This document shows, one piece after another, positions 25,827 through 29,808 of a stretch of DNA of 41,223 bases. The notes below the pieces were generated by a model, which was not told the origin of the DNA, searched no databases, and saw nothing but the letters and a program-made list of their open reading frames with translations. Source of the stretch: Candidatus Sulfotelmatobacter sp. (GTDB lineage: Bacteria > Eisenbacteria > RBG-16-71-46). The DNA lies in the NCBI GenBank assembly GCA_035498555.1, contig DATKAB010000126.1:1-41223 (forward strand). The letters run 5' to 3'. Made by a program: the position numbers and the translations under genes. How positions within the stretch are numbered: position 1 is the first letter of the stretch; each line of letters starts with the position of its first letter.

Positions 25827-27404
25827 ATGTCGGCGCCCCCCTCCAGTCCGCGCAAGAACATCACGCAGATCCTGATCGAGGCCGGCGTGGTGACCGAGCC
25901 GCAGGTCCAGGCCGGACTCGAGCGGCAACGCGCCACCGGCAAGCGCATCGGCGAGACCCTGGTCGAGCTCGGCTACGTCTCCGAGGAGGACATCGCCTGG
26001 GCGCTGGCGCGCCAGCTCGGTCTCTCGTTCGTGGACGTACGCGCCGACACCCTCGATCCCGAGCTGGTGAAATCGTTTCCCGAATCCACGCTGCGCCGGC
26101 TGCAGGTGGTGCCGCTGGTCCGTTCCGATGAACAGCTGGCGCTGGCCGCCGCGGACCCCACCGACCCTGATCTGGTGCGGGAGCTGGAGCGTCTGACCGG
26201 CGTCGCGGTGTCGTGCGTGGCTTCGACTCCGAGCGCCATCGAGCGGGCACTCGACGCGGTGTGGGGCTCGCGGCACTCGCGCCGGTCGCATCCGGCCCCC
26301 GCGCCGCCGCTCGCGCAGGCGGCGAAGGGCGCGGCACCCCACTTCGACGTGGTGTGGGACAAGTCAGGCGACACCTTCTTTCAGTTCCATCTCAGCCGCG
26401 CGACGAGCGCCGGCGCGCACGAAGTGCATTTTCTGGGCTCTCAGAGTTCCCTGCGCGTGCTCCATCGTGTCGGCGCCGTGCTCCAGAAGGTCGCCGACGA
26501 ACCCGCTCAGCTCGCCGAGCTGGTGCTGGCGCGGCTCGAATCGCTGGGGATGCCGCCCGCCGGGGAGGGGAGCAGCCATCGCGTGCAGGCGCTCGAGTGC
26601 GAGATCGGCGGGATGGAGGGCGAGATCCTGGCTTCGCGGCTGGTGACGAACGGCCGGCTCTCCGTGACGGTCCGGTTGCTGCGCGACCCGACCGACCACG
26701 CGACCCTCGATTCGCTCGGGCTCGAGGCGATCGACCTTGCCCGCCTGCGCGCGGTGGCGGCCGAGCCCGCCGGCCTGGTGCTGGTCTCGGGGCCGACCGG
26801 TTCGGGCTGCAGCACGACGCTCGCGGCGCTGCTCCGGGAGCTGCCGACCGAGGACCGGCGCTGGCTGGTGTTCGCGAACCACCATCGACGGTGGAACTCG
26901 GGATCCGGACTCGTCGAAGTCGTGAGCGGGCGGCTCGCGCGCCACTGGAGCGGCATCGCGGTCGTGCAGGGGGCCGACGGACTGGTGCTGGACGACGGCC
27001 TCAGCGGCAAGCGGGTGCGCCGCGTGCTGGGCAGCGCGACTCATGCGCGCTGGGTGCTGGCGCGCACCGACTGGGAAGAGCCATTCGCGCTGCTCGAGGC
27101 GATGAGCGCGACCCCCGAGGGGCGCGCATTGCTCTCGCGGCGCTGGCACGCCGTGATCCAACAGCGGCTGGTGAGCGTCGCGAACTCCGGCGGCGCCTCA
27201 TCCGGCGGCGCGGCACGGCGAGCGGTGTTCGCGCCGCTGTTCGCGACCGATGCGATGCGCGCCGCGATCCTTCGCGGCGCGAACGCCGGAGAATTACGAG
27301 CGCTCGCTCAGGCCGACGGCTTCCGGTTGCTTCCCGACCGCGTTCGGGACCTGGTTGAGCGCGGCGAGCTGGATCCGGGCGACGCGGCGCGGGCGGTGAG
27401 CTGA
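25827..27404 (+). CDS. GspE/PilB-like pseudo-ATPase with MshEN domain
   Basis: The 525-residue protein begins with an MshEN domain (about 10-150), matching the c-di-GMP-binding consensus: LIEAGVVTEPQVQ then RIGETLVELGYVSEEDIAWAL with Arg40, Gly42 and Gln63. The rest follows the type II/IV secretion ATPase fold (about 175-515), but its catalytic sites are lost. Walker A reads GPTGSGCSTT with Cys328 (codon TGC, 26808-26810) in place of the essential Lys. The Walker B region reads DGLVLDDGLSG instead of GEIRD. The HisBox is gone, and so is the CxxC zinc site of GspE/PilB. It still reads as a full-length gene, so it is probably a regulatory, non-hydrolysing subunit. It overlaps pilT by 1 nt. Confidence 0.87.
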   Translation: MSAPPSSPRKNITQILIEAGVVTEPQVQAGLERQRATGKRIGETLVELGYVSEEDIAWALARQLGLSFVDVRADTLDPELVKSFPESTLRRLQVVPLVRSDEQLALAAADPTDPDLVRELERLTGVAVSCVASTPSAIERALDAVWGSRHSRRSHPAPAPPLAQAAKGAAPHFDVVWDKSGDTFFQFHLSRATSAGAHEVHFLGSQSSLRVLHRVGAVLQKVADEPAQLAELVLARLESLGMPPAGEGSSHRVQALECEIGGMEGEILASRLVTNGRLSVTVRLLRDPTDHATLDSLGLEAIDLARLRAVAAEPAGLVLVSGPTGSGCSTTLAALLRELPTEDRRWLVFANHHRRWNSGSGLVEVVSGRLARHWSGIAVVQGADGLVLDDGLSGKRVRRVLGSATHARWVLARTDWEEPFALLEAMSATPEGRALLSRRWHAVIQQRLVSVANSGGASSGGAARRAVFAPLFATDAMRAAILRGANAGELRALAQADGFRLLPDRVRDLVERGELDPGDAARAVS

Positions 27405-28687
27405 TGGCGATCGACCTCACCGCGATTCTCGCCTTCGCCAAGGACCAGGGCGCTTCCGACGTACACATCGTGCCCGGCATGGCGCCGGTGCTTCGCCTGC
27501 GCGGCGAGACCCGGCCGCTGGAAATGGCGCCGCTCTCACCCGATGCCACCCGGGCCGCGATCTACGACCTGATGAACGACGAGCAGAAGAAAGTGTTCGA
27601 AGAGCGCCACGACCTGGACTTTGCCTTCGAAATCCCCGGGCTCTCGCGCTTCCGCGCCAACGTGCTGGTGCAGCGGCAGGGCGTCGGCGCGGTGTTCCGG
27701 CTCGTGCCCTCGCAGGTGAAGTCGCTCGAGGAGCTGGCGATGCCGCCGGTGCTGCAGCAGCTCTCCCAGCTCGAGCGCGGGCTGGTGGTGGTGACGGGCC
27801 CGACCGGATCGGGCAAATCCACCACGCTGGCGGCCATGGTGGACTGGATCAATTCGAACGAGCGGCTGCACATCCTGACCATCGAAGACCCGATCGAATT
27901 CGTGCATCAGCCGAAGAAGTCGGTGGTGACCCAGCGCGAGGTCGGCCCGCACACGCAGTCGTTCAGCAACGCACTGAAAGCCGCGCTGCGCGAGGATCCC
28001 GACGTGATCCTGGTCGGCGAGTTGCGCGATCTCGAGACCACCCAGCTGGCGATCACCGCCGCCGAGACCGGGCACCTGGTGTTCGGAACCCTGCACACCA
28101 ACTCGGCGTCGAAGACGATCGATCGAATCATCGACATATTTCCGTCGGGTCAGCAGGCGCAGGTGCGCACGATGCTCTCGGAATCGATCGAGGGCGTGGT
28201 GGCGCAAACCCTGCTGCCCGCCAAGGACGCCAAGGGCCGGGTGGCGGCGCTCGAGGTGCTGGTGGGGGTGCCGGCGCTGCGCAATCTGATTCGCGAGGAC
28301 AAGACCGCGCAGATCCTCTCGGTGATCCAGACCGGCGCGCAGCACGGCATGATCAGCCTCGATCAGCACCTGCGCGAGTTGGTGATGCAGGGCCGCCTCG
28401 CCCGCGAGGTGGCGATGAAGCGCTCTTCGAATCCCAAGCTGTTCGAGCAGCCGGCGCCGACCTCGACGGTCTCGGCCGGAGTCGGTTCCGGCTTCGAGCC
28501 CGCAACGCCGGCCGCGGGCGTGGCGGCGCGCCCGCCTGCGGCGCCGGCGGCCGGCGCTCCCCGCCCTGCGGCTCCGTCTGCGGCCGGCGCGGCTCGTCCG
28601 GTGGCTCCACCCGCGGCTCGCCCGCCCGCCACCGGCGGCATGGGGCCGCCGACGCCCCCCAAGAAACCGGGATTCTTCGGCCGATGA
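27404..28687 (+). CDS. pilT: Type IV pilus retraction ATPase PilT
   Basis: PilT is the hexameric cytoplasmic ATPase that depolymerises type IV pili and powers twitching motility and DNA uptake. The protein has the PilT N-terminal PAS-like domain (about 1-100; ASDVHIVPGMAP), Walker A GPTGSGKSTT (132-141), Asp box (TIEDPIEFVH), Walker B (DPDVILVGELRD), His box (TGHLVFGTLHTNSA) and the retraction signature LRNLIRED near the C-terminus of the core. All catalytic residues look intact. At 427 residues it is longer than typical PilT (about 345) because of a Pro/Ala-rich tail after residue 355. The ATG overlaps the preceding TGA by one base (TGATG) and the next start overlaps its stop by 4 nt. Confidence 0.95.
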   Translation: MAIDLTAILAFAKDQGASDVHIVPGMAPVLRLRGETRPLEMAPLSPDATRAAIYDLMNDEQKKVFEERHDLDFAFEIPGLSRFRANVLVQRQGVGAVFRLVPSQVKSLEELAMPPVLQQLSQLERGLVVVTGPTGSGKSTTLAAMVDWINSNERLHILTIEDPIEFVHQPKKSVVTQREVGPHTQSFSNALKAALREDPDVILVGELRDLETTQLAITAAETGHLVFGTLHTNSASKTIDRIIDIFPSGQQAQVRTMLSESIEGVVAQTLLPAKDAKGRVAALEVLVGVPALRNLIREDKTAQILSVIQTGAQHGMISLDQHLRELVMQGRLAREVAMKRSSNPKLFEQPAPTSTVSAGVGSGFEPATPAAGVAARPPAAPAAGAPRPAAPSAAGAARPVAPPAARPPATGGMGPPTPPKKPGFFGR

Positions 28688-29808
28688 CGCTCGACGAACT
28701 GCTGCGACAGGTCCGCGAGCGCCAGGGTTCGGATCTCTATCTCACCGCCGAGGCGCCGGCCCTGGTGCGGGTGGACGGCGCCACGATCGCGGTGACCGAG
28801 CGTCCGGCCACCGCCGACGAGGTCGAAGCGCTGATTCGCGCCGCGCTCTCTCCCGCCGACCAGGCGGAGTTCGAGCGGACCCACGAGCTCAACACCGCGC
28901 GCATGATCAAGGGCGTCGGGCGTTTTCGACTCAATGTCTTCAGGCAGCGTGGCCAGGTCGGGCTGGTCGCGCGCATCATTCCGATCCGGCTGCCGACCGC
29001 GGACGAGCTGGGCCTGCCGAAGGCGCTGCTCGGGCTGGTGATGCAGAAGCGCGGTCTGGTGTTGGTGACGGGTGCCACCGGCGCCGGCAAGTCCACCACG
29101 CTGGCGGCGTTGGTCGATCATCGCAACCGGAACACCCGCGGCCATATCCTGACGATCGAAGACCCGATCGAGTTCGTGCACGAACATCAGGGCTGCGTGA
29201 TTACGCAGCGCGAGGTGGGCGTCGACACCGCCTCGTTCGCCGCGGGCCTGAAGAGCGCCCTGCGCCAGGCGCCCGACGTGATCCTGATCGGCGAGATGCG
29301 CGACTCCGAGACGGTCGAGGCGGCGATGCACTTTTCGGAGACCGGGCATCTGGTCCTCGGAACGCTGCACGCCAACAACGCGAATCAGGCGGTGGAGCGA
29401 TTCCTGAACTTCTTCCCGGCCGAGCATCAGGCGCAACTTTACGCGCAGCTCGCGCTCAACCTGCGCGGCATCGTGTCGCAGCGGCTGATTCCGCGAACCA
29501 GCGGCGAGGGCCGCGTCGCCGCGATCGAGGTGATGCTGAACACGCCGCGCGTCGCCGATCTCATCGCCAAGGGGGAGATCGGGGCCTTGAAGACCGCCAT
29601 CGAGGACAACGCGCTGGACGGCTCGCAGTCGTTCGATCAGGCCCTGTTCGAGCTCCTGCGCCGCGGCGAGATCACGCAGGATGAGGCGCTGCGACAGGCG
29701 GACAGCGCCAACAATCTGCGCCTGCGTATCAAGATGTCGGCCGGCGGCGCTCCCGCCACGGGCGCGCCCCAATTCGCGATTCGCAAGGAAGAAGACGAGG
29801 CGGCGTAG
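28684..29808 (+). CDS. pilU: PilT/PilU-family retraction ATPase paralogue
   Basis: The 374-residue protein is a second retraction ATPase. It has the N-terminal domain (GSDLYLTAEAPALVRVDG), Walker A GATGAGKSTT (130-139), TIEDPIEFVHEHQGC, QREVGVDTASF, Walker B APDVILIGEMRD and TGHLVLGTLHANNANQ. The GATGxGKST form, the VGVDTxSF signature and the length agree better with PilU, the accessory retraction ATPase that works with PilT, than with PilT. It overlaps pilT by ATGA, so the two are made together. A hairpin follows the gene. The symbol is assigned by family resemblance and neighbour, and a PilT2 naming would be equally acceptable. Confidence 0.88.
   Translation: MTLDELLRQVRERQGSDLYLTAEAPALVRVDGATIAVTERPATADEVEALIRAALSPADQAEFERTHELNTARMIKGVGRFRLNVFRQRGQVGLVARIIPIRLPTADELGLPKALLGLVMQKRGLVLVTGATGAGKSTTLAALVDHRNRNTRGHILTIEDPIEFVHEHQGCVITQREVGVDTASFAAGLKSALRQAPDVILIGEMRDSETVEAAMHFSETGHLVLGTLHANNANQAVERFLNFFPAEHQAQLYAQLALNLRGIVSQRLIPRTSGEGRVAAIEVMLNTPRVADLIAKGEIGALKTAIEDNALDGSQSFDQALFELLRRGEITQDEALRQADSANNLRLRIKMSAGGAPATGAPQFAIRKEEDEAA

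Follow-up and report, generated by a model that had tools for sequence, protein, structure and literature searches.

A conserved PilB-type pseudo-ATPase encoded next to pilT in Candidatus Eisenbacteria

The window, a DNA stretch of 41,223 nucleotides, encodes a protein that belongs to the T2SSE superfamily by fold and descent and is almost certainly a conserved inactive ATPase. The earlier note had described it as a conserved pseudo-ATPase, and this description holds throughout the family: the non-Lys residue in the P-loop, the losses at the catalytic positions, the synteny with pilT, and the purifying selection—the latter as judged by dN/dS of close pairs—are family-wide. In this little-studied phylum, whose members are uncultured, the protein has long been retained beside the genes of retraction motors and is probably a regulator or adaptor and not a motor. 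On balance, we favor the view that it controls the adjoining PilT as a regulatory adaptor, independently of ATP. This function is inferred, as are the absence of ATPase activity, the docking site, a physical contact between the protein and PilT, and whether the effect is positive or negative.

Fold and family of the pseudo-ATPase

The gene, its domains, and its two downstream neighbors are listed in Table 1. The reading frame begins with ATG and, as the earlier note had read it, is free of stops through 525 codons. In Pfam, the MshEN match covers residues 64 to 150 (PF05157, 71.5 bits at a cut-off of 23.1); the NCBIfam model NF053729 scores 63.4 bits (cut-off 38). The T2SSE match (PF00437, 64.7 bits, cut-off 24.9) ends at residue 345, just past the P-loop, and the equivalog cut-offs of NCBIfam are missed (TIGR02538, 116.9 of 675.65; TIGR02533, 87.5 of 630.25). 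The best profile match in the PDB is PilF (6f8l, E 1.9e-68). An AlphaFold2 model (37 sequences) features every domain through the C-terminus at a pLDDT of 85.8, with values below 50 only at residues 1 to 3, 151 to 174, and 455 to 461. In Foldseek, this confident model matches GspE, PilF, and PilB best, and the fold match spans about 385 residues.

Table 1. Features of the pseudo-ATPase gene and its operon in the window
Feature	Position	Strand	Remarks
Pseudo-ATPase gene, 525 aa	25827..27404	+	PilB/GspE fold with N-terminal MshEN domain
MshEN/N1D domain, residues 12-150	25860..26276	+	PF05157 71.5 bits, NF053729 63.4 bits; dN/dS 0.07-0.11 (closest pairs)
N2D domain, residues about 181-285	26367..26681	+	Arg283 (PilB R286 finger) retained; R257 and R271 equivalents lost
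Degenerate P-loop GPTGSGCS, residues 322-329	26790..26813	+	Cys328 codon TGC at 26808-26810
Former Asp box, residues 350-354	26874..26888	+	ANHHR replaces EDPVE; Mg-binding Glu lost
Rewritten Walker B, residues 384-390, DGLVLDD	26976..26996	+	Invariant Asp389 at the Gly position of the motors
Rewritten His box, residues 407-416, ARWVLARTDW	27045..27074	+	Family-wide invariant Arg408 and Asp415-Trp416
pilT, intact retraction ATPase	27404..28687	+	Start overlaps the pseudo-ATPase stop (TGATG)
pilU-like intact ATPase	28684..29808	+	Overlaps pilT by 4 bases

Orthologues with 35 to 43% identity occur in 13 of 47 Candidatus Eisenbacteria genomes and fall into two families: five of these genomes are among the 20 in the family of the window, and the remaining eight belong to one other family of the class, f5. 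Their scores (a match of E at most 1.1e-78 in each) stand well apart from those of the ordinary PilB/GspE paralogues (E at least 1.5e-62), and the nearest orthologue of the window gene is 43% identical to it. A tree built from 63 proteins places all members in one clade (SH-aLRT 100) with a long stem (2.55), next to all PilB/GspE and apart from PilT; long branches are flagged in this tree, and the exact sister group is therefore unsure. The named records are Candidatus Eisenbacteria MAGs except for one labeled Latescibacterota and one labeled Rokuibacteriota. The gene of the latter (L045, QHRS01000098.1, labeled Candidatus Rokuibacteriota) is 99.4% identical to the copy in the Eisenbacteria MAG G008, so that the label or the binning of L045 is probably wrong. 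Beyond these records, a scan of 84,980 species, limited to two peptide patterns, turned up no such relative.

The N-terminal domain is the most constrained portion of the protein and passes the NCBIfam model of the c-di-GMP motif. MshEN domains that bind c-di-GMP carry two motifs, (R/K/L)LGxx...Q (PMC11731258). In the pseudo-ATPases, motif 2 is largely retained, and motif 1 has no Gly at position 3 in any of the 12 members, 10 of which also lack the R/K/L at its first position; binding of c-di-GMP, as predicted from these residues, is therefore doubtful. With motif 1 degenerate, a c-di-GMP receptor by motif was rejected as a candidate.

Active site and selection

The degenerate Walker A motif noted earlier, GPTGSGCSTT with Cys328 encoded by TGC, is present at that place in the window sequence. 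A Walker A Lys (GxxxxGK[ST]) is found in 0 of 12 intact members—the window's own protein included—compared with 42 of 42 ordinary PilB paralogues. Since these 12 come from independent assemblies and are all devoid of the Lys, its absence is neither chance nor a read error. The position carries Cys in the window protein and in L010, Thr in L011, Arg in L012, and Gly in L045 and all seven intact f5 members; Gly also occurs in the second frame of G008 and in the G037 fragment. Hence, the absence of Lys is conserved but Cys itself is not, and as the residue varies across the family, no Cys chemistry is implied; a conserved Cys chemistry was rejected on these grounds. The earlier note was right to consider a read error unlikely, but its figure of at least two base changes from Lys to Cys falls short: all three codon positions differ. 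From the distribution of these residues, the ancestral residue at this position was probably Gly (GGN), and GGC to TGC is one base change.

The other positions were compared using the residue roles and numbers of Geobacter metallireducens PilB (PMC5424180), counted on the sequence alignment. The reported loss of the Walker B Glu is confirmed, VLDDGLSG occupying the place of GEIRD. Family-wide, Asp stands at the Gly position (12/12), the position of the catalytic Glu (E395) holds Asp in seven members, Gly in four, and Glu in one—a replacement in 11 of 12—and the RD is lost. The equivalents of E357 (Mg), T411, H413, and H420 are missing from all 12 members, as is the tetra-Cys site, in agreement with the missing CxxC zinc site of the earlier note. 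In comparison, all 42 PilB paralogues have the Lys, GE(I/V/M)RD, the His box, and the four Cys. The His box was said to be gone; its histidines are indeed absent, but the segment is not simply lost and reads G-R-hhh-(A/V)-R-(T/V)-D-W, with the Arg, Asp, and Trp invariant. Thus numbered, all 12 members share Asp389 (Walker B Gly of the motors), Arg408 (H413), Asp415 (H420), and Trp416; Trp374, Arg433, and Arg439 are also invariant, and Arg345 is nearly so. The pattern of conserved residues indicates that the active site is rebuilt and not randomly decayed.

A rebuilt site of this kind might still bind or hydrolyze nucleotide in an unorthodox manner by means of Asp389, Arg408, and Arg325, the last being present in many P-loops. 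An acidic residue of the Walker B type has reappeared and is invariant, and the Gly-Pro of the P-loop and the backbone of Gly327 are mostly retained. However, the P-loop Lys position varies freely among Cys, Thr, Arg, and Gly, the catalytic Glu position is as scattered as given above, and the Mg-binding Glu and both His are lost, which renders such residual binding or turnover very improbable.

Close pairs of the family are under purifying selection. The closest f5 pairs (L014, L015, and L016) have a dN/dS of 0.17 to 0.23 compared with 0.09 to 0.12 for their PilT; by domain, the ratio is 0.07 to 0.11 in MshEN and 0.27 to 0.30 in the C-terminal part. In the window's own clade, L045 and G008 yield 0.11 from very few changes, and the ratios of pairs with the window gene (0.62–0.84) come from sequences too divergent to use, the nearest orthologue being 43% identical. 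The earlier note had named homologues with GSGKST and GEIRD, or a dN/dS near 1, as signs against a conserved pseudo-ATPase; the orthologues carry neither motif, and the close pairs range from 0.11 to 0.23. A decaying pseudogene or an assembly artefact could be suspected from the high divergence of the RecA domain, from the rate of the whole protein—about twice that of its PilT—and from a 4-base deletion at the P-loop of G008. The near-identical L045 is intact at this site, though, and the intact frame of 12 members, the low dN/dS of close pairs, and the new invariant residues leave this explanation with next to no probability. Read error and pseudogene were both rejected in view of the intact orthologues and the purifying selection in close pairs.

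Operon context and co-occurrence with PilT

The operon with two intact retraction ATPases that was described earlier is found as such: pilT and pilU follow directly downstream with head-to-tail overlaps, and both retain GxxGxGKS, GE(L/M)RD, and the His boxes. Upstream, an RND efflux gene stops 168 bases ahead of the pseudo-ATPase start; a search around the operon for sigma-70 promoter-like sites gave none. The gene order in the window's family is pseudo-ATPase–pilT–pilU, and in f5, it is pseudo-ATPase–pilT–unknown–HAD hydrolase with pilU absent. Of the synteny to be checked, the link to pilT holds across the family, whereas that to pilU does not extend beyond the window's own family, unrelated genes following pilT in f5; pilU as an obligatory partner was rejected because of these operons. 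The pseudo-ATPase adjoins its PilT in all members with readable flanks except G012, and the stop/start overlap of the two genes is present in most members. The additional gene of the f5 operons (L128:9600-10394 and homologues) encodes a conserved protein of about 250 to 300 residues with no Pfam match, followed by the HAD hydrolase. In G008 (L127:2849-8297), a histidine kinase and a response regulator lie directly upstream of pseudo-ATPase–pilT–pilU and a second response regulator lies downstream, hinting at two-component control.

Among the 47 genomes, the cognate PilT occurs in 13, the pseudo-ATPase in 13, and both in 12, that is, in 12 of the 14 with either (Fisher p = 3e-9, kinship uncorrected). 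This co-occurrence tracks two clades, and the effective sample is small. The two exceptions are G012, whose assembly contains the pseudo-ATPase but no cognate PilT, and G013, which has PilT and PilU with no pseudo-ATPase found and a contig that ends within pilT. Outlying (sister) PilTs of the same group occur without a pseudo-ATPase in G025 and G031.

The operon linkage and the co-occurrence would also suit a mixed hexamer, in which the pseudo-ATPase and PilT (or PilU) subunits share a ring, break its symmetry, and set the firing sites. Nine of 12 members retain the arginine finger of the R286 type, which acts on the nucleotide of the neighbor (Arg283 in the window's protein), and the N2D and RecA domains are modeled confidently. 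However, the equivalents of R271, the other arginine finger, and R257 are kept in only 2 and 1 of 12 members, respectively, and these positions are lost along with the His-box and T411 contacts, all of which belong to the packing-unit interfaces of PilB. Moreover, the pseudo-ATPase is of the PilB type and not of the PilT type, f5 members are devoid of the C-terminal helices, and PilT and PilU each form separate homohexamers (PMC6821130). Given that these interface residues are lost and that PilT and PilU assemble apart from each other, we do not favor a mixed ring and consider it distinctly unlikely, although the one arginine finger is kept.

Elsewhere, the window genome contains one operon of the pilB-pilT-pilC type and one of the pilB-pilC-pilin-pilM type, the non-motor names in both being read from gene order, size, and first residues. 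The pseudo-ATPase hence accompanies a working system and does not replace it. With active operons of this kind present, the dead PilB-like protein might act as a decoy or brake on extension by competing with PilB for PilM or PilC, its link to PilT reflecting only coregulation in a "pilus off" state. Conservation is strongest in the docking domain N1D, and protein inhibitors of PilB are known, for example, CpiA (PMC8213720). Nevertheless, the gene is linked to one PilT lineage and not to pilB, and a decoy for extension is fairly unlikely.

A different orphan PilT (GPPG[ST]GKS) followed by a recurrent gene is found in the window's own genome (C9, L149:4710-7135) and in L145, L146, and L148; in the window's own genome, this recurrent gene is a DUF4388 gene.

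Proposed mechanism and known systems

The N-domains of active PilB and GspE dock on partners of the PilM/GspL type. In the favored role as an adaptor of PilT, the conserved MshEN/N1D would dock at the pilus base, at the site used by these active N-domains. The rewritten RecA core, with no canonical ATP turnover, would hold one fixed conformation, and this conformation would recruit, gate, or brake PilT—itself devoid of an N1D—as well as PilU where present. To our knowledge, it is poorly understood how the access of PilT to the base of the pilus is gated. More tentatively, PilB-derived pseudo-motors could be type IV pilus components of a new class, in which the ATP site has become a fixed binding surface (Asp389, Arg408, and Asp415-Trp416) and a docking domain of the PilB type puts a dedicated PilT under separate control, independent of ATP turnover. 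If confirmed, the docking and scaffold roles of a pilus motor would be separable from ATP turnover, and the pseudo-ATPase would be a natural dominant regulator.

The pseudo-ATPase shares the domain order N1D(MshEN)-N2D-RecA with the extension ATPases PilB/GspE (PilF, MshE). Unlike these, it is devoid of the Walker A Lys, the Asp-box Glu, the His-box His, and the tetra-Cys, and it forms its own clade. PilT and PilU are its operon partners and belong to the same superfamily, the zinc Cys motif being absent from both types; in contrast to the pseudo-ATPase, they have no MshEN and keep all catalytic motifs.

In Vibrio cholerae, an ATPase-dead PilT still supports PilU-driven retraction (PMC6762196, PMC11656802). 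This is a similar precedent, showing that a dead motor subunit can still be needed for pilus function; however, the V. cholerae proteins were engineered by point mutation from a true PilT, whereas the pseudo-ATPase is natural, conserved, and of the PilB type. CpiA, the PilB inhibitor of Acinetobacter baylyi (PMC8213720), is a possible functional analogue in that it halts a pilus motor to which it binds, but it is without homology to any known domain, and its target is PilB. In the titles and abstracts of the open-licence literature, no natural conserved pseudo-ATPase of the PilB/PilT family was found.

The Walker A Lys has apparently been lost a second time, independently, in a PilB-like protein of a different family, f10 (L023, L155:4652-6568, G046:C169). 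This protein reads GPAGSGTT with GELRD kept and matches T2SSE over its full length at 387.8 bits.
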